Source: Planctomycetota bacterium (GTDB lineage: Bacteria; Planctomycetota; Phycisphaerae; Sedimentisphaerales; Anaerobacaceae). Taken from it: 37,135 bases of DNA. A program made the translations under genes and the position numbers. Location of the stretch: contig VGYL01000003.1 of assembly GCA_016872975.1 (NCBI GenBank), positions 1 through 37,135 of the forward strand. Direction: 5' to 3'. The notes under the pieces are model-generated. The model was not told the DNA's origin and did not search any database. It saw only the letters and a list, made by a program, of their open reading frames with translations. Below, one piece after another: positions 17,468 through 36,765 of this stretch (its first letter is position 1; each line of letters opens with the position of its first letter).

Positions 17468-17790
17468 CTAGTACCGCATTTTGCAGGTCCTGAGACTATA
17501 GGGTAGAGATTGCCTCGTCGCTGAAGCTCCTCGCAATGACATACTTGGGCGCCCTATGTCATTGCGAGTCGCGAAGCCGCTTCGCGGCGGGTAGGAGAAA
17601 GCAACCCGCCGTGTCCAGGGTGCCATGCCTACGCCTCGTAGGCATGTCTACGCAAAGCCGTAGACATGGCACCCAAACCGCCAGTTTCTTAGGAGCGAGG
17701 CTTGCCGAGCGCGGCAATCCTGTCATTGCGAGGAGCGCAGCGACGAAGCAACCTCACCATAGTCGCGGTACTTGTGAAATGCGGTACTAG
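17468..17790. mobile_element. Full-length MITE-like element, family R2 copy B, with nested palindromes
   Basis: Perfect 14-bp terminal inverted repeats CTAGTACCGCATTT / AAATGCGGTACTAG; subterminal inverted GAGATTGC..CGTCGCT..GCTCCTCGCAATGACA motifs; no transposase. Confidence 0.7.
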
Positions 17791-17811: not shown

Positions 17812-20376
17812 CTACCGCGGGTCGGGCACGGGGTAGCGGGCGATGACGCGGACCTTGTCGTCGGCGGAGTTCACCCGGCTGCGATCGAGGATCGCAATGA
17901 TCCGCTTCTGCGGGCCGTTTGTCCCGATCCGGACCAGAAGGTAGGCGGTGAACACGTCGCTTCGCACCGTCACCAGGTTGCTGATCCGGGTGAAGATCAG
18001 GTCCCGTTCCTCGAAGTCGTCGCGGGCCGTGTCGGGTGTCAGATCCGGTCCGCGCGGCACGTCGCCATGCTGATTATCCCGGCCGTCGAAGGCCAGGGCG
18101 CACAGGGCATCGACCTGCATCAGATCGCCGATGCTTCGGTAGGGGCCGCGGCTCTCCCGGAATTCGACGATGGCCCGCGCCTTCTCGAAGGGAGTGGCAT
18201 CCCCATACTGCATCCACGGGAGTTGGGCCAGGACGAAGGCCGGCGCCGTGTTGACGTTGACGCGGCCCATGATACGGGTCTCCTCGGCCGCAATGCCCGG
18301 ATTCTGCGCGGGATCCATCACGGTCAGGTAGTTGAAGAGCCGGCGATAGGCGGGATTCCGCAGATCGATGAGACACTCGGCGCCGGTCGCCCCTTCCGGG
18401 ATGCTGTAGGCGTTCCGGGCCAGGATCAGGCCCAGCTCGCCGATATTGGTCAGCGGTTTGTTGGCGGGATGCGCCTGGATGACCTCGGGCCGCTGGGTAT
18501 CGATGTAGTTACCGGCGGCGTTGCCCAGTCCCGGTATCGAGGTCTGGGCCTCGGAGGCCCAGAGCCGCCGAATGCACTTGTGCGGCGCGATGTCCCGCTG
18601 CAGACTGCGGGCCACGCCGTCGGCCGTGATCCAGGTATCCGGCACTCTCCTGGAATCGACCACGACCCAGCGTCCCGCCGACCGGACCTGCCGTTGCAGG
18701 GAGATCGTGGCGCCCGCTTCGAACGCGGCCTGGCCCAGATCCTGGACGGTTTTCGTCGCATAGGTCCTGCGGTTGTAGCCGTACAGCGGCATCGTATCGA
18801 CGGGCTCCTCCGGATCGGCGAACACCACGTAATCCCTCGTCAACGGGGCCGCCGCATTCTCGGCCAGCAGGACGTGGAACCGCCGCGATCCGGACCAGGC
18901 AATGTCCAGCTCGAAGTCGGCGGTCGCCGGATTGTCGATCACGATCTTCCAGTCGCCCGGCCGCGGGTCGTTGTCCTCGAAGTACGGCTTGTACAGCTCG
19001 ATCGCATACGAGGTGCGCAACTCGCCCGTGTCCGGGTCCTTCGTCTGCCGGTAGGCCAGCTCGGACAGGTAGATGCAGGGACTCTCAAAACCGTAGTAGG
19101 GAGAGGAAAGCCCCGCGATCACCGTGATCTCATCATCGTCGTCGATGTAATCCATCAGGTTGGCCGTGATTTGAATCGCCTTCTCGACGACCCCGAACGC
19201 GTTCGGGTCCGCTTCGGCCAGGGCCGCCGTGATGACCGCCCGCAGGGTCAGCTCGTCCGCCGTATTGACATTCACCATCCGGCGGAGCTGGGCCCCGGCG
19301 TCGGTGGTCACGGTCTTCGGCAGGAGAATCCGATCCATGTTGTACGTGGTCGCGACGGCGCGGTACGCGTAGTTGGGATCGAGTCCGCCGCCGGCCACCC
19401 GGCGAAACCACGTATGCAGCTCCGCGCCCCCGGAATCCACGGGCGTACGCACGGCATTCTGCCGGAACAGGCCCCAGTTCTCCAGGCGGGTATCCACCGC
19501 GGTCTGGTTCAGGATAAAGCGATAGCGGGTCTCCAATTCGTCGGAAATGTCGAAGGGCGTGTAGGCGAAGGGCGTGTTCGCGTCCAGGCCCGCGACGGCC
19601 GGCCGCTCCAGATAGCGCCAGATGACCTCCCGCTCGTAGGCCGCCAGATCCAGGGCGGCCGGGCTCGCGGTATTGTTGGCGCGGGCCCCGAGCAGGGCCG
19701 CTTCGTGGGCCGCCGTGGCGGGACGTCCTGGTTGGGTCGCCAGGGCCAGGACATTCACCTGGAGCTGGCTGCGGCCGTCGACCCGGGCCTTGTTGTTGTC
19801 GCCCGGGTCGAACCTGTAGCCGGTGTTCACGTTGAGCATGCCGCCGTTGTCGATCAGGCGCACCGCCGCATAGATCGGTTGTCCCTTGCTCGACATCACG
19901 CCGGGCACCGGGAACCAGCGGGCATCGCCCACCCCATCGCCGGCGGCACCGGCGTTCGTCTCCACCCCGTTCGGGTCCGCGCCGATCGGCTCGCGCTCCC
20001 CCACCACGCGGATGCGGACGTTCTGTGTCTGGGACGCCGGCAGGCCCGCCACGTTGCTGATCTGCCGCCAGAAATATACCCCGCCCGCCTCGTACGGCGC
20101 GCCGCTCGCCAACCAGACGTTGTTGGCGTCCGGATAGTCGTAGTACGCCTGGTTGCCGCCGACGCCGGGGAGGTCCGCCACCAGCAGTTCCTGGATCTGG
20201 GCCAGGACCGTATCGAGGGCCAGGTTCAGCTCCCGGTTCTCCGCGGTGGCCGAGGTGGCCATCCTGTCGATCCGGGTCGTCAGGATGAACAGCACGCCCA
20301 CGAGGGCCAGCAGGCTGGTGAGGACCACCGCCAGGATCAGGGCCGAGCCTCGGCGGGCGAAAGCGTGGGTCCCCAA
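17812..20376 (-). CDS. GspK-like large minor pseudopilin
   Basis: Prepilin-like N-terminus 'RRGSALILAVVLTSLLALVGVLFILTTRID'; GspK-type 'GRVNVNTAPAFVLAQLP...ARAIVEFRESRGPYRSIGDLMQV'. ORF is open to 20670; the upstream ~98 codons are repeat-derived, so a TTG start at 20376 is proposed. Confidence 0.75.
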   Translation of the reverse strand: MGTHAFARRGSALILAVVLTSLLALVGVLFILTTRIDRMATSATAENRELNLALDTVLAQIQELLVADLPGVGGNQAYYDYPDANNVWLASGAPYEAGGVYFWRQISNVAGLPASQTQNVRIRVVGEREPIGADPNGVETNAGAAGDGVGDARWFPVPGVMSSKGQPIYAAVRLIDNGGMLNVNTGYRFDPGDNNKARVDGRSQLQVNVLALATQPGRPATAAHEAALLGARANNTASPAALDLAAYEREVIWRYLERPAVAGLDANTPFAYTPFDISDELETRYRFILNQTAVDTRLENWGLFRQNAVRTPVDSGGAELHTWFRRVAGGGLDPNYAYRAVATTYNMDRILLPKTVTTDAGAQLRRMVNVNTADELTLRAVITAALAEADPNAFGVVEKAIQITANLMDYIDDDDEITVIAGLSSPYYGFESPCIYLSELAYRQTKDPDTGELRTSYAIELYKPYFEDNDPRPGDWKIVIDNPATADFELDIAWSGSRRFHVLLAENAAAPLTRDYVVFADPEEPVDTMPLYGYNRRTYATKTVQDLGQAAFEAGATISLQRQVRSAGRWVVVDSRRVPDTWITADGVARSLQRDIAPHKCIRRLWASEAQTSIPGLGNAAGNYIDTQRPEVIQAHPANKPLTNIGELGLILARNAYSIPEGATGAECLIDLRNPAYRRLFNYLTVMDPAQNPGIAAEETRIMGRVNVNTAPAFVLAQLPWMQYGDATPFEKARAIVEFRESRGPYRSIGDLMQVDALCALAFDGRDNQHGDVPRGPDLTPDTARDDFEERDLIFTRISNLVTVRSDVFTAYLLVRIGTNGPQKRIIAILDRSRVNSADDKVRVIARYPVPDPR

Positions 20377-20498
20377 ACCCGAGAGGCCGGATTTGGGGAC
20401 CCTTCCCAAGTGGGAAATCTCATGGGTGGAAATCCGAACGCCGAAATCCGACACCGCGAACGCGGAGGGATCGATCCGAGACCGACATCTCCTTGCGG

Positions 20499-20566
20499 GC
20501 GCAGCGAAGCATTCTCCCCTACTACGGCTTGAGATTGCTTCGTCACTGCGCTCCTCGCAATGACAT
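20499..20566. repeat. Degenerate palindrome of the GAGATTGCTTCGTCGC family
   Basis: GCAGCGAAGCATTCTC ... GAGATTGCTTCGTCACTGCGCTCCTCGCAATGACAT. Confidence 0.65.
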
Positions 20567-20666
20567 ACGCAGGTCTTGTCCGCTGACAGCGTTCTAGTCA
20601 TTTGTGCTTTGAACATTGGAATTTGTTTCGGATTTCGGATTTCGAATTTCGGATTTACCTTCTCCG

Positions 20667-21746
20667 TCAATTATCCAGATAGACGATGTGCGTAAAGGTC
20701 CGGCCCCCCGGGATGAGGCCCCGCGCGTCGTACAGGGTGAACGTAAACTTCAAGGCCCGTCCCAGGCCGGGGACCTGATTGAAGTCCATATTCAATTCCC
20801 GGTACTGACGGCCGCGTCCGAAGACCGCCGCCCGCGGATACCACAGGCCGGGAATCTGGTCCCGGTGCAGGTCGGACCCGTCCAGGAGGAAATCGGAGTC
20901 GTCCGTCAGATCCGCGTTGCCGTTCGGATTGACTTGCGGAATCCAGCGCCCTTCCGCATCGCTCCAGCCCTGGATCTTGAATTGCCCCACCCCCCGGCAC
21001 AGGAACGAGCGCAGCGACGCGGGCTGGGCCGGGTCCACCGTCACGCCCCCGACGGTGGCTTTCTTGTCGCTGGTATACCGCCCGCCCAGATCGACCTTCA
21101 CGTCGCCGATCACCGACAGGAGATCTGCTTTCACCGCCGGCGCGATCAACTCCCAGCCGCGCAGCGTGATCCGATCGAACTCCCCCCCGCTCATCCAGCT
21201 TCGCCAATCGTCATCGGTGAACCGGCTCGTGCCGAGCGGATCGTCGGGATTCACCGCCGCCGACGGCGCCACGAGGATGTGCTCGGTGCGTGCCAGGACC
21301 CGTCGGTGCGGTTCCTGCATCTGGGGCCGGTTCGGCTCGGAGGAACCGGCCGCGGGACCGTTCGCCAGGGCATAGGAGATCCGGGCGAGATTGCCGCGCA
21401 CCGGGGGATCGGCGCCGTAGGTCCGGAAGTCGCCGGTGGCGAAGAACATGATCCGGTCGAAGCGATCGAAGGCCTCTTCGGCATTCGGGTTCTGGCCCGG
21501 CCCGGTGTGCTTCCCGTTGCGGGCGGCGCGCCAGAAGACCAGAATCTCCCCCTCGCGGCGCAGCCCGCGGAAGTCCTCGTCCAACTGTTCCGTGATCGCG
21601 CGGAGCTTTTGCAGAATCTCGGCGTTGGCCAGGGCCAGCCGGTGCGAGTCGATACTGACCCGGAAGATGGTGCCGGCGAAGGACATCACAATCGCCAGAA
21701 TCCCCAGGGCGACGATCATCTCCAGAAGTGTGAAGGCCTTTCGCAT
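20667..21746 (-). CDS. GspJ-like minor pseudopilin
   Basis: 'MRKAFTLLEMIVALGILAIVMSFAGTIFRVSIDSHRLA...AITEQLDEDFRGLRREGEILVFW'. Confidence 0.75.
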   Translation of the reverse strand: MRKAFTLLEMIVALGILAIVMSFAGTIFRVSIDSHRLALANAEILQKLRAITEQLDEDFRGLRREGEILVFWRAARNGKHTGPGQNPNAEEAFDRFDRIMFFATGDFRTYGADPPVRGNLARISYALANGPAAGSSEPNRPQMQEPHRRVLARTEHILVAPSAAVNPDDPLGTSRFTDDDWRSWMSGGEFDRITLRGWELIAPAVKADLLSVIGDVKVDLGGRYTSDKKATVGGVTVDPAQPASLRSFLCRGVGQFKIQGWSDAEGRWIPQVNPNGNADLTDDSDFLLDGSDLHRDQIPGLWYPRAAVFGRGRQYRELNMDFNQVPGLGRALKFTFTLYDARGLIPGGRTFTHIVYLDN

Positions 21747-21747
21747 C

Positions 21748-22530
21748 CTAGTTTCCCGGGAATTGCAGAACCTGCTGGTACACCGCGACGGCCGGGTTCC
21801 TGCCGCCGGAGGCGGCCGGGGGGATCACCCACGCCCAGGCGCCGGTCCAGGGCCGATCCAGCAGGACCCGGTCCGGCGCGTGGGCGTACCGTTCCAGCAC
21901 GCGGTAAGTGTGTCCCGTGGCGTCGTCCACCAGGATCGAGCCGTCATTGACGAAGGCCCGCTCGTCCACGGCATCCGTGGGCACGGCGTCCCGGATCAGG
22001 GCCTCGTTCGCGTTGGTCGCGGCGGCATCCGGCACGAGGTTGAGGCGCAGGGGCCGGGACAGATCGGGATTGGCCGTCCCCAGTTGCGGCCAGTCGGCGC
22101 CGGTCCGGCGCACCCAATACGTGGCGCCGGCGGTCTGCCGGCTGATGAACACGACACACTGGATGAGCCGGCTGCCGGAGCCCATCCGGCGGCAGAGCGC
22201 CGACCAGGAGTACTGCCGGGAGGGATCTTCCCGCGTCGACGGGTAGAGATACTCCTCGGCCGGGATCGTCACGAGCTGCTCGTAGGGCACGAAGCCCTCG
22301 CTCTTGAGGCTCGCATGGTTCGGGTCCAGGCCGTAGATCCGCAGCTTGGCCAGGGCCTCGTCGGCCGCCACCGCCGCAATGGTCCGCTCCGTCGAGGCGG
22401 TCGAGAGATAGAGCGCTGTCAGGAACGTGCCGGCGATGAACATCAGACCGATGCCCAGCGTGCTGACGGCCAGCAACGTTTCCATCAGGGAGAATCCAGC
22501 TTGCCTGCTGTGTTTCGCCATAACCGTCAC
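21748..22530 (-). CDS. GspI-like pseudopilin
   Basis: 'QAGFSLMETLLAVSTLGIGLMFIAGTFLTALYLS' class III signal peptide. Confidence 0.7.
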   Translation of the reverse strand: MTVMAKHSRQAGFSLMETLLAVSTLGIGLMFIAGTFLTALYLSTASTERTIAAVAADEALAKLRIYGLDPNHASLKSEGFVPYEQLVTIPAEEYLYPSTREDPSRQYSWSALCRRMGSGSRLIQCVVFISRQTAGATYWVRRTGADWPQLGTANPDLSRPLRLNLVPDAAATNANEALIRDAVPTDAVDERAFVNDGSILVDDATGHTYRVLERYAHAPDRVLLDRPWTGAWAWVIPPAASGGRNPAVAVYQQVLQFPGN

Positions 22531-23373
22531 TCACCGCGACGCAATCAGGCTTCCCGCGTACGGGCTCACGTGAAAAGCCTCATCCTTCAACTTGCTCAGA
22601 TACGCCGTCCACGGCATCCTGGACCCATAGGCCGCTCGCAGCGTGGGCAGATCGTAGATCACAAAACTGGTTCGGCTGGACTCGCGGCCCAAACCGAGAT
22701 CCGCCCCGTTCGTCCCGTTGCGCGGCGAATAGTCGTCCTGAATGAACATGCCCTGCCGGTACCGGCAGATGTTGTCCACGGAATTGAACACGTCATCGGT
22801 GGCGATCTGCGTGGAGCCGGGACTGTTGTTGGGACGGTAGACCCCCTGGCGGTTGCGGACCCGGACCTCGTGCACCGCCAGCTTGCCCGAAGGCGCGAAC
22901 ACGATGGAGAACGTGGTCGCGTCACTGAGCTCGAACAGCTCATCAATGGCGGCGTCACTGGCGATCCCCGTCAGGTCCATCACGCCCATCGTGTCGGGCA
23001 GCTTGATCGGCTCCATCCCGTCCATGGCCCGGAACCCGTTGGCCAGGCCGCCGAGTTTCTTGGGCTCTTCGTGCACGATGAAGATCATGTACTGCGGGGC
23101 GTTCAGCACGTCCTGGAGCGGATCGAGCGGATTGGTGGACGTGCAGAGTTTCTGGAACCGGACGCCCACGTATCTTTGATTGCTCATCGCCATGGCCCGG
23201 GCCGAGCTCAGGGCGGCCTCGACCATGCTCTGGACGCCGCTGTGCGTGTGGAACGATCGAACGAGGGTCCGGACGGCCGGCACGGCGAAGCCCACCAACA
23301 GCGCCATCGTCGCGACGACCAGCGTCATCTCGATCAGCGTCAAACCAGTTGTCCTGCGTGCTCGATGCGACAT
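22531..23373 (-). CDS. GspH-like pseudopilin
   Basis: 'TTGLTLIEMTLVVATMALLVGFAVPAVRTLVRSFHTHSGVQSMVEAALSSARAMAMSNQRYVGVRF'. Confidence 0.75.
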   Translation of the reverse strand: MSHRARRTTGLTLIEMTLVVATMALLVGFAVPAVRTLVRSFHTHSGVQSMVEAALSSARAMAMSNQRYVGVRFQKLCTSTNPLDPLQDVLNAPQYMIFIVHEEPKKLGGLANGFRAMDGMEPIKLPDTMGVMDLTGIASDAAIDELFELSDATTFSIVFAPSGKLAVHEVRVRNRQGVYRPNNSPGSTQIATDDVFNSVDNICRYRQGMFIQDDYSPRNGTNGADLGLGRESSRTSFVIYDLPTLRAAYGSRMPWTAYLSKLKDEAFHVSPYAGSLIASR

Positions 23374-23415
23374 ACGCTCTACGCTCTCATCGTCTCTACG
23401 AGAACGAACGTGGAT

Positions 23416-23495
23416 ATGTCATTGCGAGGAGCGCAGCGACGAAGCAACCTCAATCCCACGGAGGGGAGATTGCTTCGCTTCGCTCGCAATGACAT
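23416..23495. repeat. Palindromic repeat of the GAGATTGCTTCGTCGC family
   Basis: ATGTCATTGCGAGGAGCGCAGCGACGAAGCAACCTC - 14 nt - GAGATTGCTTCGCTTCGCTCGCAATGACAT. Confidence 0.85.
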
Positions 23496-23517
23496 GGAGA
23501 TAGTCTTCATTCCGGCT

Positions 23518-24000
23518 TCACCGCTTGCCCTTGCTGTTGATATCGTCGCCGGTGCCGAACTGCCGGTCCGGGCCGGCCGAGATCAACTCCGGAAAGGTAT
23601 TCCCCGCCACATAGATATAGTCCATCACGGTCCCCCAGGGGTCGCGCAGCGACCGGGCGTCCGCGAGCCCGCCGTCGCTTTGGACCAGCGCGGGGTCAAG
23701 CTTCTCGAGGATCTGCCGTGCGGCCGGCACCGAACGCAGCTCCTGGACCATCAGGGTCATGTGCGCCAGGGCATTGGCGGCATTGCGCTCCGGCTGCGGC
23801 GGAAACTGCCCCTTGAACTCGTAGTACTCGCGCAGCGCACCGCCGACGACGGCGAAGGCATTGCGCACCACATTCTCCTTCGCCTGACTCTCCACGCGCA
23901 GCGTCACCGTGACCACGAGGGCGGCCAGGGCCATGATGACGCCCAGCACGACCAGGATCTCCACGAGTGTCACGCCGCCGTTATGTTTCGGGTCCGTCAT
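23518..24000 (-). CDS. GspG-like major pseudopilin (1 of 3)
   Basis: 'NGGVTLVEILVVLGVIMALAALVVTVTLRVESQAKENVV'; C-terminal 'ELISAGPDRQFGTGDDI' Ca-site-like motif. Confidence 0.8.
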   Translation of the reverse strand: MTDPKHNGGVTLVEILVVLGVIMALAALVVTVTLRVESQAKENVVRNAFAVVGGALREYYEFKGQFPPQPERNAANALAHMTLMVQELRSVPAARQILEKLDPALVQSDGGLADARSLRDPWGTVMDYIYVAGNTFPELISAGPDRQFGTGDDINSKGKR

Positions 24001-24027
24001 GCGCTGCTCCCGCGCCACCCCGCGCGG

Positions 24028-24945
24028 CTATCGTCCAAAATTGCGGATATCGTCGTCCGTGCCGTAAAGCCCGTCGGCGCCGGCCGAGATCAACAGATAG
24101 GAATCCGGCCGGTACGGCCAAGGCCGCGCCTGCACCCGCGGGTCGCGGATGGACTCGTAGAAGTACTGGAACCCCGGCGCGACCAGATCCGGCAGGAACT
24201 GGTGCTGGCGCCGCAGGTTGGCCGGTTTCAGACCGTCGGCCACCCGGCCCAGGCCGACCAGCGGCGCGTTGTCCCGCGCGCAATAGATGCTCGCGTCCGC
24301 GGCCGCCGGATCGTGAAGCTTGCTCGCGACATTGGCCCGAAAGTAGAGAATCGGCGTTCCCGGACTGACCATCTTGCCGTCGGGCATCTGGATCTTCCGG
24401 TCGCCGACACTGAAGACATCGCACAACACGTACGTGCGGGCGGCCAACGGCTGGGCAGTCACGAAGAGCCCGTCCTGCGCGCCCCCCCCGCTCCAACTGA
24501 GCATGAAGGGGTTGACGATCTCCGCCTCCACGTACCGGCCCCGGCGCTTGTCCAAGGTGACCGAGGCCGGATTCGCCTTCAGGGGGTCATACGTGGCCGG
24601 GCCATTGTTGCGGTCCAGGCCGTCCGCCCGCCACGCGGAATCCGGATGGAACCCCAGCAGGTCCCAGCCCAGCAACGCCTCCGCCAGTTTCTGCGCGCCG
24701 CAGTAGTCCTGCCGGCCGCCCGGGAGGGTCGGATTCCACCAGCTCGACGGCGGGTAGTCCCCATAATCGCTGCGGAAGGCCGCCAGTCCGAGTTCGATCG
24801 ACGTGAACTGGGCCTTCTGCTTGGTCTCCTTGGCCATCTTCTGCACCGTCTGCACCGCCGGCAGCAGCAGACCCACCAGCAGCGCAATGATGCCGACCAC
24901 GACCAGGATCTCGATCACTGTCAGGCCTGACGTTCTCGTTTTCAC
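24028..24945 (-). CDS. GspG-like major pseudopilin (2 of 3)
   Basis: GTG start; 'TSGLTVIEILVVVGIIALLVGLLLPAVQTVQKMAKETKQKAQFTSIELGLAAFRSDYGDYPPS'; C-terminal 'LLISAGADGLYGTDDDIRNF'. Confidence 0.82.
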   Translation of the reverse strand: MKTRTSGLTVIEILVVVGIIALLVGLLLPAVQTVQKMAKETKQKAQFTSIELGLAAFRSDYGDYPPSSWWNPTLPGGRQDYCGAQKLAEALLGWDLLGFHPDSAWRADGLDRNNGPATYDPLKANPASVTLDKRRGRYVEAEIVNPFMLSWSGGGAQDGLFVTAQPLAARTYVLCDVFSVGDRKIQMPDGKMVSPGTPILYFRANVASKLHDPAAADASIYCARDNAPLVGLGRVADGLKPANLRRQHQFLPDLVAPGFQYFYESIRDPRVQARPWPYRPDSYLLISAGADGLYGTDDDIRNFGR

Positions 24946-25075
24946 GATATTCCTCTTTCCATGTCGAGGTGATGACTCCGGAGCCGTCCTTTGCCTTCCT
25001 CGACGGCTCGATCCAAGCAAGACATCCGCGGCGTCGCGCCGGCGCATCTGCCGCGCCCGCCGGGGAGACCCAGTG

Positions 25076-25990
25076 CTACTCCCGGTACTTCCACTCGAAG
25101 TTGCAGATGTCGTCTGCCGTGCCGTATTCGTTGTCCCAGCCGGCGGAGATCAGGATGAACGTGTCCGCCCGGAAAGGACGCATGGTGGTGCTGATCTGCG
25201 TGCTGCGGACATTGCGATAGAACCGCGCCGGATCGGCCATCTTGTGCACACTCCCCGCCTGGCCCGTCGCCCCGCTCGTCTGCCAGGGCTTGCCAAGCTG
25301 GACCAGGTCGTGATTGTCCCAGTAGTTGTAGATGTTGCCCCGGCTGTCCGCCCGGGTCATGGCACTGACGAAGTTCGGGTCGTGGTAGCTGTTGGCCGTA
25401 TCCGCCCGATAATAGAGGATCGGCATGCCGGTCTTCTCGCCGGACCGCATCTGGCGGGCGTACACATCGCACAGCACGAAGGTGTTCGGAAGGTACTGGC
25501 CGACGTTACCGGTGCCGTAGATATCCTGCAACCGCCAGGCATTCGCGTTCTCCGCCTGCAGGAAGGGGCCTTTGCGAGCCTTGAGATTGTTGTCGCGGAG
25601 AGCCGGCGTCAGCGCGTCGATATTCACCGGGTACAGGAGCTGGTTCGCGGCATCGAGACCGTCGCGACGAAAGACGGAACTCGTGTGGAAGCCGAGCAGG
25701 TCCTTGCCCATCAGAGCCTCGCAGAGTTTCATCGAGCCGCAGTACGGCGCGCCGGTGGGATCCAGCGCGGTAGAAGGCGGATAGCCGTCGAATTCGTTGT
25801 TGAACAGCTCGACGGCCGCGTTGATGGCGTTGAACTGCGCCTTCTGCTGCACGTCCCGGGCGTAGCGGCGGACCTTGTTGAGCGCCGGCACCATCAGTCC
25901 GATCAGGATCACGATGATGCTCATTACGGTCAGCAGTTCCACAATGGTGAACGCCCTTTTCTTTCTGGCTTGGCTCACGGTCGGTTTCAT
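25076..25990 (-). CDS. GspG-like major pseudopilin (3 of 3)
   Basis: 'KRAFTIVELLTVMSIIVILIGLMVPALNKVRRYARDVQQKAQFNAINAAVELFNNEFDGYPPS'; C-terminal 'ILISAGWDNEYGTADDICNF'. Confidence 0.82.
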   Translation of the reverse strand: MKPTVSQARKKRAFTIVELLTVMSIIVILIGLMVPALNKVRRYARDVQQKAQFNAINAAVELFNNEFDGYPPSTALDPTGAPYCGSMKLCEALMGKDLLGFHTSSVFRRDGLDAANQLLYPVNIDALTPALRDNNLKARKGPFLQAENANAWRLQDIYGTGNVGQYLPNTFVLCDVYARQMRSGEKTGMPILYYRADTANSYHDPNFVSAMTRADSRGNIYNYWDNHDLVQLGKPWQTSGATGQAGSVHKMADPARFYRNVRSTQISTTMRPFRADTFILISAGWDNEYGTADDICNFEWKYRE

Positions 25991-26043: not shown

Positions 26044-27297
26044 TTACCCAGCGGCACTGAGGCTGGTAATCACCTGGATCATCGGCAAGAACACCGCCAG
26101 CACGATGACCATCACCGTGCTGCCGAGCACGAGAATGATGATCGGCTCGAGCATGGACATGAGACTGCCGACGAGCACGTCCACCTGCTCGTCGTACTGA
26201 TCGGCCACTTTCAGCAGCATCTTGTCCAAATCGCCCGTCTCCTCGCCGACGGCCACCATATTGGCGACCAGCAGGTCCACCGTCTTGGAGGCCCGCAGGG
26301 GTCCCGCGAAGGTGTCGCCCTGGCGAATGGAGTTGTGGACGTTGGCGAGCATTTTCGCGTAGACTTCGTTGCCGGCGGTCTCGCGGGTCACGTTGATGGC
26401 GTCGAGAATGGGCACGCCGGCGCTGATCAGCGTACCGAGCGTCCGGGTCCAGCGGGTGATCGAGATCTTGCTCGTCAACTGCCCGATGACCGGCAGCTTC
26501 AAGTTGATGGTGTCCAGCACGAACCGGCCCGGCTGGGTCTTGCGCACGAGGCGTAGAAAAAGGACAAAGCCGAAGGGAACGCCGCTGAGCACGGCCCAGC
26601 CATAGCGATGGGCAATCCAGTCGCTGATGGCCAGCACGGTCGTCGTCACGGGATTGAGCTTGCCGCCGACCATTTCCTGGAGCACGCCCTGGAAGGTGGG
26701 GATCACGAACGTCATCAGGCCCAGCACGATGCCGAAGGCCGCCGTCATCACGACGATCGGGTAGATCATGGCCCCTTTGACGCGTCCCTTCAACCGAATG
26801 GCCTTCTCCTTGAAGTCGGCGATACGGGCGAGGATCAGATCCAGCACGCCGCCGGCCTCTCCGGCGGCCACCATGTTGATGAACAGCCGGTCGAAGGCCC
26901 GCGGGTACTTGGCAAAGGCCTCGGAGAGGGTCGAGCCGCCCTCGATGTCGTCGCAGACGTAGCCGATGATCCGCTTGAAGCTGCCGGCCTTCTGCTGCTC
27001 TTCGAGAATACGCAACGACCGCAGAATCGGCAGACCCGCGTCCTGGAGGGTCGAGAGCTGCCGGGCGAACTGGGTGACGTACTTGACCTTGACCTTGGCG
27101 CCCGCCCCCCGCCGCCGCACGGGTTTGGCGCCCGCTTTCGCCGCCCCGCCTTTGACCGCCCCTTTCGGGCGGACTTTCGTGGGGAAATACCCCATGGTGC
27201 GGATCTTGCTGATCGCCTCTTTTTCGCTGAGGGCCTCGATTTCGTCCTTGATTTCCACGCCCTGGGAATCGAGCGCCACATACTGAAAGACGGGCAT
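26044..27297 (-). CDS. gspF: GspF/PilC inner-membrane assembly platform protein
   Basis: 'YVTQFARQLSTLQDAGLPILRSLRILEEQ', 'GAMIYPIVVM', 'GVPILDAINVTRETAGNEVY', 'EPIIILVLGSTVMVIVLAVFLPMIQV'. Confidence 0.93.
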   Translation of the reverse strand: MPVFQYVALDSQGVEIKDEIEALSEKEAISKIRTMGYFPTKVRPKGAVKGGAAKAGAKPVRRRGAGAKVKVKYVTQFARQLSTLQDAGLPILRSLRILEEQQKAGSFKRIIGYVCDDIEGGSTLSEAFAKYPRAFDRLFINMVAAGEAGGVLDLILARIADFKEKAIRLKGRVKGAMIYPIVVMTAAFGIVLGLMTFVIPTFQGVLQEMVGGKLNPVTTTVLAISDWIAHRYGWAVLSGVPFGFVLFLRLVRKTQPGRFVLDTINLKLPVIGQLTSKISITRWTRTLGTLISAGVPILDAINVTRETAGNEVYAKMLANVHNSIRQGDTFAGPLRASKTVDLLVANMVAVGEETGDLDKMLLKVADQYDEQVDVLVGSLMSMLEPIIILVLGSTVMVIVLAVFLPMIQVITSLSAAG

Positions 27298-27358: not shown

Positions 27359-29125
27359 TTAGCCCTCGATCATCGTCTCTTTCGAGATTTCATCGATCGT
27401 GGTAATGCCATCGTAGATCGCGATCAGACCGTTGTCGCGAAGCTGCCTCATGCCGGTCTTCTGGGCCGCCACGCGCAAGACGTTGGTCGAAGCGCGATTC
27501 ATGACCAACTCGCGGATTTCGTCGTTGAACACCATTATTTCGAAGATGCCGACTCGGCCCTTGTAGCCGGTGCCGTTGCACTTGCTGCACCCGCGGCCGT
27601 AATAGAATCTCTTGCCCTTGATCTCTTCCACCGTCAAGCGCAGATCCTTAAGCTGCGCCTCGTCCGGCTGAAAGGCTGTCTTGCAGTTCGCGCAGATCCG
27701 CCGCACCAGGCGCTGGCTCACGATTCCCTCGATGGTCGCGGTCAAGAGGAAGGGCTCGACCCCCAAATCCAGCAGACGGGCAATCGTGCTGGGGGCGTCG
27801 TTCGTGTGCAGCGTGGTGAACACCAAGTGGCCGGTCAGCGAAGCCTGGGCGGCGATTTCCGCCGTCTCCAGGTCACGAATCTCACCGACGAGGATGATAT
27901 CCGGGTCCTGCCGCAGGATAGACCGCAGACACCGGGCAAACGTCAGGCCGATGTCGGGTTTCATCTGGACCTGGATCATGCCGTCCATATCGTATTCGAC
28001 GGGGTCCTCGGTCGTGATGATCTTGCTGTCGATCGTGTTGAGTTCGTTGAGGGCCGAGTACAGCGTCGTGGTTTTGCCGCAGCCGGTGGGGCCGGTGACG
28101 ATAACGATACCGTTCGGCTTGTTGATCAGCAGACGGATCGTCTTGATGTCGTTGGGCCGCAGACCTAGTTTCTCCAAGTCGAAGCTCACCTGGCTGCGGT
28201 CCAGAACGCGCAACACGACGCTCTCGCCGAACATCGTCGGCAAAACGCTGACGCGCAGGTCCACCGGACTGCCCTGCACCGTCAGCGAGATGCGGCCGTC
28301 CTGAGGCAGACGCCGCTCGGCAATATCGAGGCTCGCCATAACTTTGATGCGGGAACTCAACGCCGCCGCGATGTACTTCGGCGGCGGGATCATCTCATAC
28401 AGCACGCCGTCGATCCGGTACCGCATCTTGTACTCGGTCTCGAACGGCTCGAAATGGATATCGGACGCCTTGTCGCGAATCGCCTGCAGCAGAACGAGGT
28501 TCAGCAGTTTCTTGACCGGGTTGGACTCCGAAAGCTCCTTCAACTCATCCAGGTCGATACTTGTGTTTCTACCGTCAAATTCGGCCAGAAACGCATCCGA
28601 CTGAATCTCGTCGATCAGTTCGGTGATGTTGTCGTCCTGCTTGGTCTCGTAGTATTTTGTCAGCGCGGCCTCCAGGCTGTCACGATCGGTCATCTTGGCC
28701 GTCACGGTAAAGCCCATCAGCGTGCGCAAGTCATCCGTCGCACGGAAGTTATCGACATTATCGAGCGCCACCGTCAGCTCGTTCTTCTCCTTGTTGTATC
28801 CGATGGGAAGGATATGATAGGTCTTGGCCATCTGGGCCGGCACCTTCTCGATGGTCTCGGCGGCGATGTCCAAGCCGTCAATGCTGGTGTATTCCATGCC
28901 GCGCTTGGCCGCCAAGGCGATCTGGAGTTCGGTCTCGCTCACTAACCCCAGCTCCAAGAAGATCTGCCCGATGCGGACATTCCCCCCGCGCTGCTTCTGC
29001 ACCTCCAGGCATTCGTGGACCTTCTCCCGGCTCAGGACGCCCATTTTCATGAGAATTCTGCCCAAAGGCCGGCCGCGGAGTTGTTCGACGGGCGGGAGCT
29101 TATCGAATGCCTTTGTCTTTCCCAT
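27359..29125 (-). CDS. gspE: GspE/PilB-type assembly ATPase with N-terminal MshEN-like domain
   Basis: Walker A 'IVTGPTGCGKTTTLYSALNELN', 'IILVGEIRDLETAEIAAQASLTGHLVFTTLHTNDAPSTIARL', zinc CxxC 'CANC...CSKC'; start MGKTKAFDKLPPV. Confidence 0.95.
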   Translation of the reverse strand: MGKTKAFDKLPPVEQLRGRPLGRILMKMGVLSREKVHECLEVQKQRGGNVRIGQIFLELGLVSETELQIALAAKRGMEYTSIDGLDIAAETIEKVPAQMAKTYHILPIGYNKEKNELTVALDNVDNFRATDDLRTLMGFTVTAKMTDRDSLEAALTKYYETKQDDNITELIDEIQSDAFLAEFDGRNTSIDLDELKELSESNPVKKLLNLVLLQAIRDKASDIHFEPFETEYKMRYRIDGVLYEMIPPPKYIAAALSSRIKVMASLDIAERRLPQDGRISLTVQGSPVDLRVSVLPTMFGESVVLRVLDRSQVSFDLEKLGLRPNDIKTIRLLINKPNGIVIVTGPTGCGKTTTLYSALNELNTIDSKIITTEDPVEYDMDGMIQVQMKPDIGLTFARCLRSILRQDPDIILVGEIRDLETAEIAAQASLTGHLVFTTLHTNDAPSTIARLLDLGVEPFLLTATIEGIVSQRLVRRICANCKTAFQPDEAQLKDLRLTVEEIKGKRFYYGRGCSKCNGTGYKGRVGIFEIMVFNDEIRELVMNRASTNVLRVAAQKTGMRQLRDNGLIAIYDGITTIDEISKETMIEG

Positions 29126-29165
29126 CGCGATCACCCTTAAAGACCCGATAATCCAGTACGCTTGC

Positions 29166-29193
29166 ATTGTAGCAAAGTAAACAATGATGGCAA
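29166..29193 (-). promoter_or_regulatory. Sigma70-type promoter upstream of gspE (27359..29125)
   Basis: Minus strand TTGCCA (29188-29193) - 16 nt - TACAAT (29166-29171), within an AT-rich intergenic patch. Confidence 0.5.
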
Positions 29194-29339: not shown

Positions 29340-30491
29340 TTACGTCTTGAGGATCGGCCCGAGATCTTCCAGCTCCTTGGCCGCTTCGTCGGCCTTCTTC
29401 TTCATCTTGCCCTTGGCGCCACTGATCTTGTTCACCGCCTTCTGCTGCAGGGCGCCCGGCTGGCGGCCCTTCTCCAACATGCTCTCGAGGGTAATCTTGC
29501 CCGCGTCGTAGAGGCTCCACAGGTGCTCATCCAGCAACTGCATACCGAGTTTCTTGCCTGTCTGGATGCTCGAATCGATACGATACGTCTTGTTCTCGCG
29601 GATCAGGTTGGCGATGGCGGGCGTGACGACCATGAACTCATAGGCGGCACAGCGGCCGCGTCCGGTCGCCAGCGGACAAAGCTCCTGGCTCAGAACCGCG
29701 ATCAGGTTACCGCTGAGCTGCGTGCGGATCTGCTCCTGCTGCTCGGTCGGGAACACGTCGATGATACGGTTGACCGTCCCGGCGGCGCTGGTCGTGTGGA
29801 CCGTACTAAACACCAGGTGTCCCGTTTCCGCGGCACGAATCGCGTTACTGATGGTCTCCAAGTCGCGCAATTCGCCGACCAGAACCACGTCCGGGTCCAT
29901 ACGGAGCACGCGCCGCAGCGCCTCGGCAAAGCTGGGCACATCGACGCCGACCTCGCGCTGATTGATGATCGACTTCTTGTGGGGGTGATAGTACTCGATC
30001 GGGTCTTCGACCGTCACGATATGCCGGTCGAAATTCTCATTGATGTAGCTGATCATGGTGGCGAGGGTGGTCGTTTTTCCGCTGCCCGTAGGCCCGGTAA
30101 CCAGAAAAAGACCGCGGGGCCGTCGGCACAGGGCCGCGCAGATCTTCGGCAGACCGATCTCCTCGAAGGTGAGGATCTTATAAGGGATTTGCCGCAAGAC
30201 GATGGAGACATTGCCTTTTTGCTTGAACACGGAGACGCGGAAGCGGGCGGCCTCACCGAAGGCAAAGCCAAAGTCCGTACCGCCTTCCTCCTGGAGCTCC
30301 TGCTGGCAGCGGTCCGGCGCGATGCTCTTCATCAGGGCCATGGCGTCGTCCGGCTCGATGACCTTCGTCTCCAGGGACCGTAGGCTGCCGTCGATCCGCA
30401 ACACCGGCGGCCGCCCCACACTGATATGAATGTCGGAAGCCCCCTGCGTGACGCACGCCTGGAGGAGTCGATCCATGTTCAAAGTGCCCAT
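29340..30491 (-). CDS. pilT: PilT-type retraction ATPase
   Basis: 'MDRLLQACVTQGASDIHISVGRPPVLRIDGSLRSL', 'LFLVTGPTGSGKTTTLATMISYINE', 'AIRAAETGHLVFSTVHTTSAAGTVNRIIDVFP'. Confidence 0.94.
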   Translation of the reverse strand: MGTLNMDRLLQACVTQGASDIHISVGRPPVLRIDGSLRSLETKVIEPDDAMALMKSIAPDRCQQELQEEGGTDFGFAFGEAARFRVSVFKQKGNVSIVLRQIPYKILTFEEIGLPKICAALCRRPRGLFLVTGPTGSGKTTTLATMISYINENFDRHIVTVEDPIEYYHPHKKSIINQREVGVDVPSFAEALRRVLRMDPDVVLVGELRDLETISNAIRAAETGHLVFSTVHTTSAAGTVNRIIDVFPTEQQEQIRTQLSGNLIAVLSQELCPLATGRGRCAAYEFMVVTPAIANLIRENKTYRIDSSIQTGKKLGMQLLDEHLWSLYDAGKITLESMLEKGRQPGALQQKAVNKISGAKGKMKKKADEAAKELEDLGPILKT

Positions 30492-30567: not shown

Positions 30568-32310
30568 TCATTCCGTGATAACCCCCTCAATCTGCGCGGT
30601 GCTCGAGACCTCCTGGGGCGTCGAAATGCCTTTGAAGACCTTGAGGACCCCGTCCTCGGCCAGCGTTCGCATCCCGCTGGCCTTTGCCACCATCCGCAAC
30701 TCACCGGTGGCCGCCCTCTTGTACGCCAATTCCCGCAGCTCGTTATTCATCTCGACCATCTCGAAAATGGCGAGCCGGCCCTTGTAGCCCGTGTTGTGAC
30801 AGGCCGGGCAACCAAGCCCCTTATACACCGGCCGCTTCTTGGTCTCCGCCGGATCGATTCCCAGGAGCCGCAAATGCTGGGGATTCGGGTTCTCATCCAC
30901 GGCCTTGCATTTCTTGCAGATCACGCGGATCAGCCGCTGGGCCATGATGGCCTGAATCGAGCTGGCCACCAGGAAGGGTTTGACCCCCATATCGATCAGA
31001 CGGGTGATCGCACTGCACGCGTCGTTGGTGTGCAGGGTACTGAACACCAGGTGTCCCGTCAGAGCGGCCTGGATGGCGATGTTGGCGACTTCGTGGTCGC
31101 GAATTTCGCCGACGAGGATGATATTCGGCGCCTGACGCAACATGGCACGCAGAATGAGATCGAATTTCAGGCCGATTTCTTCCTTGACCTGGCACTGGTT
31201 CATGCCCGCGAACATGTATTCCACCGGATCTTCGGCGGTAATGATCTTCTTGTCCGGCTTGTTCAGCTCCTGCAGCGCGGCGTACAGCGTCGTGGTCTTG
31301 CCGCTGCCGGTCGGCCCGGTCACGAGGAAGATGCCGTTGGGCCGCTTGATGATCTGTTGGAACATCTCATAGTTGTCTTGCTCGAAGCCGAGCGATTCGA
31401 TGCCGATGTTGACGGCATCCGGCCGCAAAATACGCAGCACCACGCTGGGACCGTGGACGCCCGGCAGGGAGGAAACGCGAAAATCGATGTCCGAGCCGGC
31501 AATCATCCGCTTGATACGGCCGTCCTGCGGCAGCCGCTTCTCGGCGATGTCCATGCCCGAGAGAATCTTGAAACGCGTCACCAGCGGCGCCTGCATGTTC
31601 TTGGGAATGTTGTCCTTCTCGAGGCAGACGCCGTCGACGCGATAGCGGATGCGGACCCGATCGGCCATCGGCTCGATGTGAATATCGCTGGCCCGCATGT
31701 GGTAGGCAGTATCGATAATGAGGTTCACGAGCCGAATGATGGGGCCTTCATTGGCGTCGCCCGACGCCTGGGCCCGCTCAGCCAGTTCCGCCACGGTGAT
31801 ATCGACACTGTGCTTGATGCCCTCGATGGTGTCCTTGACGTTCTTCCAGGCGTCGTCCTTGCTCTGAACATCGGCCTTGTCCTCCAGGGAGGTCTCGATG
31901 TAGGCGCGGATCTTCTTCGGATTGGCGACGTGATACTCCAGCTCCTTGTTGAGGCGAAGCCGGACCGAGTCCATCATGTCCAGATCCATCGGGTCGCTGA
32001 TGACCAGCGTCAGACGGCCGTTGTTGACGCTCAGCGGCAGGATATTGTGCCGCTTGATGAGGTCCTCGGGCACGATCTTGGTGGCGTCGGGCGGGATGGT
32101 CACGTCATCGAGGTTGACGTACTTGAGGCCGAATTGCTTGGCAATGGCCTTGGCCAACATATCCTCATTGATCAGGCCGAGATCGAGCAGGACCTGGCCC
32201 AGGCGCTTGTTGCTCGACTTGGCCGTCTTGATCGCGTTAATCAACGCCTGCTTTTCGACCAACCCTGCCTTGAAGAGGATTTCCCCTAAGTGCATGCGTT
32301 GTTTGGTCAT
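30568..32310 (-). CDS. gspE: Second GspE/PilB-type assembly ATPase with N-terminal MshEN-like domain
   Basis: 'RLGQVLLDLGLINEDMLAKAIAKQFGLKYVNL', 'LVTGPTGSGKTTTLYAALQELN', 'CKKC...CPAC', 'IILVGEIRDHEVANIAIQAALTGHLVFSTLHTNDA'. Confidence 0.94.
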   Translation of the reverse strand: MTKQRMHLGEILFKAGLVEKQALINAIKTAKSSNKRLGQVLLDLGLINEDMLAKAIAKQFGLKYVNLDDVTIPPDATKIVPEDLIKRHNILPLSVNNGRLTLVISDPMDLDMMDSVRLRLNKELEYHVANPKKIRAYIETSLEDKADVQSKDDAWKNVKDTIEGIKHSVDITVAELAERAQASGDANEGPIIRLVNLIIDTAYHMRASDIHIEPMADRVRIRYRVDGVCLEKDNIPKNMQAPLVTRFKILSGMDIAEKRLPQDGRIKRMIAGSDIDFRVSSLPGVHGPSVVLRILRPDAVNIGIESLGFEQDNYEMFQQIIKRPNGIFLVTGPTGSGKTTTLYAALQELNKPDKKIITAEDPVEYMFAGMNQCQVKEEIGLKFDLILRAMLRQAPNIILVGEIRDHEVANIAIQAALTGHLVFSTLHTNDACSAITRLIDMGVKPFLVASSIQAIMAQRLIRVICKKCKAVDENPNPQHLRLLGIDPAETKKRPVYKGLGCPACHNTGYKGRLAIFEMVEMNNELRELAYKRAATGELRMVAKASGMRTLAEDGVLKVFKGISTPQEVSSTAQIEGVITE

Positions 32311-32344: not shown

Positions 32345-32374
32345 ATTATATCACATTGAGACCGGACCTGTCAA
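32345..32374 (-). promoter_or_regulatory. Consensus sigma70 promoter for the pilus/secretion locus
   Basis: Minus strand TTGACA (32369-32374) - 18 nt - TATAAT (32345-32350); -35 lies in the last codons of cinA. Confidence 0.75.
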
Positions 32375-33622
32375 ATCCAGCCGCAAACGCAGGATATTCA
32401 GTGCCGTCTGCGCCGCCCGCAAACGCACGGAACCGCGATCGAACGAGAATACATGGCGCGACGTCTCCGTACCGTCGTGGTTGTCCACAGCAATGTATAC
32501 AAGCCCGACGGGTTTTTGTTCGGTGCCGCCGCCGGGACCGGCGATACCGGTTATGCTGAGGGCATAGTCTGTGCCGGCGGTACGGCGTGCGCCCTGCGCC
32601 AGGGCCCGGGCCACCGGCTCGCTGACGGCGCCGTACGTCGCGATCGTCGCGACAGGCACCCCCAACGCGCGCGTCTTTGCCTCATTGCTGTACGTAACCC
32701 ATCCATAGGTAAAATACTCGCTGGAGCCGGGAATATCCGTAATCAGCTTGGCCAGGAGTCCCCCGGTGCAGGACTCCGCGACCGCCAGGGTCCGGCCCGT
32801 TCGCCTGAGACGGTCACCCACCACCTCCGCCAGGGTCTGGTCCTCGACGCCATAGACCAAGGAGCCCAGGGCCGAACGAAGGGAGCGTTCCTCCCTTTCG
32901 GCCATCTCCTGAGCCTCCGTCTGCGTGTCCGCTGTCGCCACGACCTCCAGTGTGATCACGCCCAGATGGACGGTGCAGTTGACCAAGGGATTCCTGCCGC
33001 GCCGCATGACGTCGCCGATCATTTCGGCAATCGTGGACTCGCCCGCCCCGAAGCACTTCAACCTGCGCACGGCCAGGGCCTGCCCGCTCACCAGCGGCTG
33101 CAACTGGGGCAGGACCTGCGTCTCCAGCATGTGCCGCATCTCGGCGGGCACACCCGGCAACGCGAAGAGCAGCTTTCCGTCTCTCTCGGCCCGGATGCCC
33201 GGGGCCGTCCCCAACTCATTCTCGAGGGCCGCCGCCCCGCGGGGAATACAGGCCTGGATCGAGTTCCGGGTAGGCATCGCCACCCCGCGGCGGTCGAAAA
33301 ACTGCTGGATCTTCTCCAGCAAGTCGGGACGGAGCACCAGCTCCACGTCCAGAAACCTGGCGAAGGCCTGCCGTGTCAGGTCATCATCGGTCGGCCCCAG
33401 ACCGCCGGTGGCGACCACCACGTCCGCCTCACCGGCCGCCAAGCCCAGCGATCGCTCGATCGTCCCTTCTTCATCCGCCACGGCATGCACGCTGACCACG
33501 GGCAGACCGATGCTCCGCAGACGCCCGGCGATGTACGCGGCGTTCGTATCGACGGTCCGCCCGCTCAGCAACTCGTTGCCGATGCTGAGGATAGCGGCCT
33601 TTTTGACGTGCTCATCACCCAC
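32351..33622 (-). CDS. cinA: CinA family protein (competence/damage-inducible; MoCF-like plus nicotinamide-nucleotide amidase domain)
   Basis: 'KKAAILSIGNELLSGRTVDTNAAYIAGRL', 'VVATGGLGPTDDDLTRQAF', C-terminal 'LAVAESCTGGLLAKLITDIPGSSEYFTYGWVTYSNEAK'. Confidence 0.95.
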   Translation of the reverse strand: MGDEHVKKAAILSIGNELLSGRTVDTNAAYIAGRLRSIGLPVVSVHAVADEEGTIERSLGLAAGEADVVVATGGLGPTDDDLTRQAFARFLDVELVLRPDLLEKIQQFFDRRGVAMPTRNSIQACIPRGAAALENELGTAPGIRAERDGKLLFALPGVPAEMRHMLETQVLPQLQPLVSGQALAVRRLKCFGAGESTIAEMIGDVMRRGRNPLVNCTVHLGVITLEVVATADTQTEAQEMAEREERSLRSALGSLVYGVEDQTLAEVVGDRLRRTGRTLAVAESCTGGLLAKLITDIPGSSEYFTYGWVTYSNEAKTRALGVPVATIATYGAVSEPVARALAQGARRTAGTDYALSITGIAGPGGGTEQKPVGLVYIAVDNHDGTETSRHVFSFDRGSVRLRAAQTALNILRLRLDLTGPVSM

Positions 33623-36461: not shown

Positions 36462-36585
36462 CTAGTATCGCATTTCGCAGGCCCCAAGACTATAGGGTAG
36501 AGATTGCTTCGTCGCTGAAGCTCCTCGCAATGACATATTTGGGCACCCTATGTCATTGCGAGGAGCGCAGCGACGAAGCAATCTC
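36462..36585. repeat. MITE-like repeat family R2, copy C
   Basis: CTAGTATCGCATTTCGCAGGCCCCAAGACTATAGGGTAGAGATTGCTTCGTCGCTGAAGCTCCTCGCAATGACATA ... TATGTCATTGCGAGGAGCGCAGCGACGAAGCAATCTC. Confidence 0.85.
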
Positions 36586-36765
36586 CTTCCGTTGGCCGCA
36601 GGACTTCTGAAACACGGGACCAGGTTCGATATCCTCGATTTCGAGGCTTTGCCCTGCAGGCAAAGCCGGCCGAAGGGGGGAGTATACCATATCTGCCATT
36701 GCCTCAACATATTTTGGGAAGATTCCTGTCGCGTGGCGGCGTATCGGTCCGCTATAATCACTTGT

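Follow-up and report, generated by a model that had tools for sequence, protein, structure and literature searches.

What kind of machine would be served by three consecutive GspG-like genes, when the T2SS of other bacteria has one GspG, the subunit of a short secretory piston, and these three stand in tandem with PilT and a second PilB as partner motors? The question is raised by the window analysed here, a stretch of 37,135 nucleotides from a planctomycete genome available as a fragmented MAG. The named relatives that can be reached through the first of the three proteins are Phycisphaerae, one of them labelled Sedimentisphaerales. The original prediction for this DNA described three ORFs ending in GspG-like calcium loops and took them for a triplicated major pseudopilin of a T2SS. 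Our verdict is that the three-ORF observation was right, and firmer than could be known from the letters alone, and that the frame of a triplicated T2SS has to be replaced by an old array of several subunits in a distinct PilT-bearing machine. More specifically, the reading that we favour as probable is a type IV filament machine which differs from T2SS and T4aP alike and builds a Ca-stabilised and probably retractable filament out of several GspG-type subunits that are conserved together. The rule of one major pseudopilin per machine, with no PilT in T2SS-like systems, appears to be broken by a machine conserved in a class known for polysaccharide degradation. With a partial coverage of the literature, we found no published work on this planctomycete locus, which is weak evidence of novelty.

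Three Tandem Prepilin Genes

The three consecutive ORFs are all found on the minus strand with the C-termini claimed for them, in the order G1, G2 and G3. The first gene, G1 (25076-25990), encodes a large GspG-like prepilin of 304 aa with an insert of the YCG..DLLGFH type and the tail SAGWDNEYGTADDI. Its paralogue G2 (24028-24945) encodes a prepilin of 305 aa, also large and GspG-like, which ends in SAGADGLYGTDDDI and starts at the GTG at 24945, with AGAGGA ahead of it, the upstream ATG at 25047 not being the start. The third gene, G3 (23518-24000), encodes a prepilin of GspG size (160 aa) with a DPWG motif and the tail SAGPDRQFGTGDDI, and its start is most likely the ATG at 24000. All three leaders are of the prepilin type, short and positively charged, and the three proteins share a long hydrophobic helix and a Glu at mature position 5. 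At the predicted cut site of the G1 leader, RA^FTIVE, position -1 is occupied by Ala, a replacement of Gly that occurs in most members of the G1 family. The paralogy seen between the two larger ORFs holds, with 39% identity between G1 and G2 and the motif YCGxxKLxEALxGxDLLGFH in both. The same can be said of the long insert, as about 210 residues lie between the N-helix and the calcium loop in the model of G1 vs about 75 in G3.

The C-Terminal Calcium Loop

A Ca-type loop is indeed present at the three C-termini, whose tails follow the pattern SAGxDxxxGTxDDI and are near-identical to the Ca loop of E. coli GspG, SAGPDGEMGTEDDI. In this line, the C-terminus of the E. coli K-12 protein, YDLLSAGPDGEMGTEDDITNW, is almost identical to that of G2, LLISAGADGLYGTDDDIRNF. 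Across the six frames of the window, the pattern AGxDxxxxTxDD gives three matches, which are the C-termini of G1, G2 and G3 only, and composition alone would give it with a probability of about 3e-6 per 40-residue tail. All 43 long-type relatives and 16 of the 22 short-type ones retain the motif G-x-D-x(3-4)-x-T-x-D-D, and a looser form of it is seen in all 65; in the 22 short-type proteins, the first Asp and one later Asp are invariant. In the structure of EHEC GspG (3G20), the Ca2+-bound loop PGPDGVPNTEDD offers main-chain ligands from P114 and V119 and side-chain ligands from D117, T122 and D125 (PMC3396595). Residues D286, T291 and D294 of G1 align with these side-chain ligands and are invariant in the 43 long-type relatives, and from the sequence of the loops we infer that G1, G2 and G3 bind Ca2+. 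The PERCAL motif GxDGxx[GN][TN]xDD (PMC3396595) agrees with the three loops in spacing and acidic residues, although the strict G after D is missing in G1 and G3, and loop position 9, reported as D/E for GspG (PERCAL, PMC3396595), is A, D or G in these proteins.

Relationship to GspG

The relationship of the three ORFs to GspG, as originally proposed, is supported by the C-terminal loop and the operon position and, in the case of G3, also by DPWG. Profile scores set G3 apart, which reaches 22.2 bits with PF08334 (T2SSG; cut-off 21 bits) and 37.1 bits with TIGR01710 (cut-off 88.85). With the latter model G1 and G2 obtain 28.5 and 41.1 bits, far under the cut-off and with the N-terminus alone matched, while the GspG proteins of the same genome on contigs C66 and C310 obtain 105 and 121 bits and E. 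coli GspG 184. Moreover, PilA, a type IV pilin of a related genome, scores 41.9 bits, on par with G2. Scores of the N-terminus with the GspG model were consequently discarded as evidence, and it is the C-terminal loop and the position that link G1 and G2 to GspG.

Structural models follow the same division. The AlphaFold model of G3 (pLDDT 86) has GspG structures as its top Foldseek matches, including the Ca-bound PulG (5o2y), with a probability of 1.00, though with E values of 4e-3 to 6e-3. The model of G1 is confident (pLDDT 91, pTM 0.84) and comprises a helix at 16-67 followed by a large head, for which the Foldseek search against solved structures gave nothing significant (best E 0.91). 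On the basis of these models, we propose that G3 may retain the compact GspG fold, and that G1 and G2 would be enlarged GspG derivatives, keeping the polymerising N-helix and the Ca loop and carrying an extra globular head. Compared with the GspG proteins of T2SS (PulG, EpsG, XcpT; TIGR01710, PF08334), the N-helix with Glu5 and the Ca loop are common to all three, and G3 also shares DPWG and, judging from its model, probably a GspG-like fold, whereas G1 and G2 differ by a head about 130-140 residues larger and by scores under the GspG cut-offs.

The Motor Cassette

The three prepilin genes form part of an operon-like cassette on the minus strand, which ends at 17812 and has the order PilB-PilT-PilB-PilC-G1-G2-G3-H-I-J-K (E1-T-E2-F-G1-G2-G3-H-I-J-K). 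Its first gene, E1 (30568-32310), encodes one of two PilB/GspE ATPases, with an MshEN domain of the c-di-GMP type (596 bits with PilB, 561 with GspE). It is followed by T (29340-30491), a retraction ATPase of the PilT family that scores 457.9 bits with TIGR01420 against a cut-off of 319.1 and has a conserved start at about 30491. The other assembly ATPase, E2 (27359-29167, with a true start possibly at about 29122), scores 627 bits with PilB and 619 with GspE, both just under the cut-off; for E1 and E2 alike the PilB score is slightly higher than the GspE score, and neither cut-off is reached. The inner-membrane platform F (26044-27297) is matched equally by the GspF and PilC profiles. On the other side of the array, position and weak profile matches identify three minor pilins, H (22531-23373) at the GspH position, I (21748-22530) at that of GspI/PilV and J (20667-21746) at that of GspJ, whereas K (17812-20373) is an enlarged GspK-like protein of about 853 aa with a helix-hairpin-helix domain (HHH_3 above its cut-off; T2SSK at 22.0 vs 24.2).

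The upstream neighbour of the cassette, also on the minus strand, is a gene for a CinA-like protein (32351-33622), conserved in much of the order. At the end of this gene and directly upstream of E1 lies a match to the sigma-70 promoter consensus, TTGACA-18-TATAAT with TG before the -10 (32345-32374, minus strand), which agrees at 12 of 12 positions and is to be read as a consensus match only. A REP-like inverted repeat, GTCATTGCGAGGAGCGCAGCGACGAAGCAA, is dispersed over the window (17719-17760, 20486-20574, 23408-23496 and 36549-36590), and in one copy, located between G3 and H, it folds into a strong stem (z -4.7). The stem may alter the expression of the pilin genes vs the downstream genes and, as it is missing in the relatives checked, any such effect would concern this strain only.

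Conservation and Age of the Array

All the loci of the order (24 of 24) have three or four G-type genes after F, followed by H, within an order-wide arrangement E1-T-E2-F-[3-4 G]-H-I-J-K. The array is mostly long-long-short in families f1 and f2, and long-short-long-long in f7 and f4. When the long forms are placed in a tree, the G1 and the G2 proteins of family f1 make up two distinct groups (100/100 and 94/94), and long forms from other families fall in with each of them, which indicates that the gene was duplicated before the families of the order diverged. What was taken for a triplication is thus no recent event, but an ancient array whose copy number varies and which the class has retained. 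An orthologue of F occurs in 111 of 120 genomes of the class (E <= 1e-100), nearly always as a single copy. Most of 20 loci from other orders of the class share this gene order and usually contain two to four G-type genes, the Ca loop being present in many; a few loci are truncated, or have one G-type gene or none recognisable (e.g., L180). At a larger scale, the E-T-E-F motor module recurs across Planctomycetota, with downstream pilins often beyond the reach of the profiles. A restriction of the long type to one order, suggested by a phylum scan with the long-type profile, was dropped, since six candidates per genome were scored in that scan and the loci around the F orthologue contain long-type homologues in other orders.

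Conservation is uneven along the array. Within Sedimentisphaerales, it is consistently highest in G1 among the pilins of the cassette, and markedly lower in G2 and G3, which speaks for a version of the pilus-like machine where one of the three proteins (probably G1 or G3) is the sole major subunit of the filament and the remaining two, as minor pilins of low abundance, decorate or cap it. The variable number and order of the array, such as the long-short-long-long of f7, would also be expected for accessory pilins. However, the Ca loop and the leader are the same in all three proteins, and the G1-, G2- and G3-types are retained together in every locus of the order examined. We consider a single major subunit possible but rather doubtful; as a sub-model of the pilus-like machine, its probability overlaps that of the filament with several GspG-type subunits that we favour.

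T2SS, T4aP or a Distinct Machine

Homologues of GspE, F, G, H, I, J and K occur together in the locus (H-K by position and weak profile matches), with secretin, PilM-like and peptidase genes elsewhere in the genome. They could belong to a true but divergent T2SS, with G3 as the working GspG, G1 and G2 as accessory or specialised pseudopilins for particular cargo, and the secretin and platform encoded elsewhere. The GspG-type Ca loop and DPWG, the GspH/I/J/K order with a K bearing HHH, the many secretins of the genome and the richness of Sedimentisphaerales in putatively secreted CAZymes (PMC11131199) are all in its favour. Nevertheless, the operon keeps a conserved PilT, which is frequently lost in T2SS (Denise et al. 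2019, PMC6668835) and makes the cassette unlike a standard one. Moreover, none of GspC, GspD, GspL, GspM and GspO was found among the ORFs around the cassette, and two other loci of the same genome have one canonical GspG each. A T2SS with a triplicated major pseudopilin, as first suggested, is on these same grounds not supported, with PilT and two PilB/GspE ATPases in the operon, and even in its divergent form a T2SS looks unlikely.

The T4aP motor set of PilB, PilT and PilC is found in the cassette, in the order PilB-PilT-(PilB)-PilC of the pilB-pilT-pilC module and with PilT over its family cut-off. On the other hand, a T4aP-type major pilin is missing from the cassette, whose filament subunits are of the T2SS pseudopilin type and bear GspG Ca loops, and PilMNOPQ are unlinked. 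Related genomes (L113, L114, L115 and L118) have, besides the cassette, a separate T4aP-like locus with PilB, PilT, PilC, a 145-aa pilin, minor pilins, PilM/N/O-like proteins and a secretin. Trees of the E and F proteins with E. coli and local references showed long branches and gave no firm placement with either T4aP or T2SS.

A further, conserved operon (L107 4732-8998; also in L108, L109, L110 and L111) encodes a PilM fused to a membrane span and a PilN-like domain, followed by a pair of periplasmic proteins, each with a single span and no Pfam match, and adjoins a methylthiotransferase-like gene. It occurs once per closely examined genome of the order, and a linkage to the cassette, sought in all the loci examined, was not found. 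This PilM/N-fusion operon is a candidate for an assembly platform acting in trans for the cassette.

A Probable Filament with Several Subunits

In the type IV filament superfamily, a leader of this kind marks a protein for processing and for polymerisation by PilB and PilC, and PilT disassembles the filaments. One filament machine with several GspG-type subunits is the most economical reading. T4aP-like motors (two of PilB type, one PilT and PilC) would be joined here to T2SS-like subunits, namely the GspG-type proteins and the minor pilins of the H/I/J/K type. A prepilin peptidase encoded elsewhere would trim G1, G2 and G3, which PilB and PilC would polymerise into a filament started by an H-I-J-K tip. 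Ca2+ would then lock the C-terminal loops of the exported subunits, and PilT would be able to disassemble the filament. The three proteins could mix as co-subunits in a single heteropolymeric filament, or take turns as the major subunit as conditions change, and, judging from the genes, the heteropolymeric or alternative fibres of the original prediction are plausible. The conservation of this unusual combination across the class suggests a mixed-subunit or switchable surface filament. If so, it would offer a natural system where the choice of subunit tunes a piston vs an adhesin vs a retractable pilus, and would also bear on the point at which T2SS split off from T4P.

Streptococcus sanguinis has a heteropolymeric T4P built from two major pilins, PilE1 and PilE2 (PMC6497953, PMC10628169), which resembles the case proposed here in having paralogous major pilins served by one machine. 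That bacterium, however, is a monoderm whose two major pilins have been shown to co-assemble, whereas the compact and enlarged Ca-loop forms described here come from a planctomycete and are known from genes. Among planctomycetes, Fimbriiglobus has been reported to have type IV pili that help it to adhere to chitin, as cited in PMC11131199. More tentatively, and with less confidence than in the machine itself, the cassette could represent a Planctomycetota class of machine, separate from T2SS and T4aP, whose PilB/PilT motors would drive a composite, Ca-gated and retractable surface filament with two to four different major subunits of the T2SS Ca-loop type, some of them with heads that match no solved fold.

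Related Proteins Elsewhere

The genome of the window also contains over 60 orphan proteins whose N-terminus is GspG/T4P-like and whose C-termini are different. Spread over many contigs (e.g., L036-L042), they are possible clients or decorating subunits. Their similar N-terminus recalls the proviso of the original prediction that G1, G2 and G3 might be general planctomycete prepilin-like proteins of the DUF1559 type without relation to the machine, an identity that we rejected as highly improbable, as none of the three has a Pfam match to PF07596, the orphans inspected have different tails without the Ca loop, and the three genes hold a constant place after PilC and before H, in an operon that is conserved throughout the order and, for the most part, in the class.

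A G1-like orphan, with 59% identity, is encoded on contig C20 of the same genome (L034, L059 9178-10155) without a motor cassette nearby. Orphan G1-like proteins occur as well in many relatives, in some instances near another E-T-F cluster (L054, L057). Finally, several relatives have one or two extra ORFs between G1 and G2 with C-terminal dockerin/EF-hand-like repeats, one of them with a significant Dockerin_1 match (L066 14478-15452, L067 13202-14266, L068 7773-9668, L070 13943-14944 and L071 13098-14195). These ORFs are missing from the genus of the window, and their products are possibly exported proteins associated with the filament.
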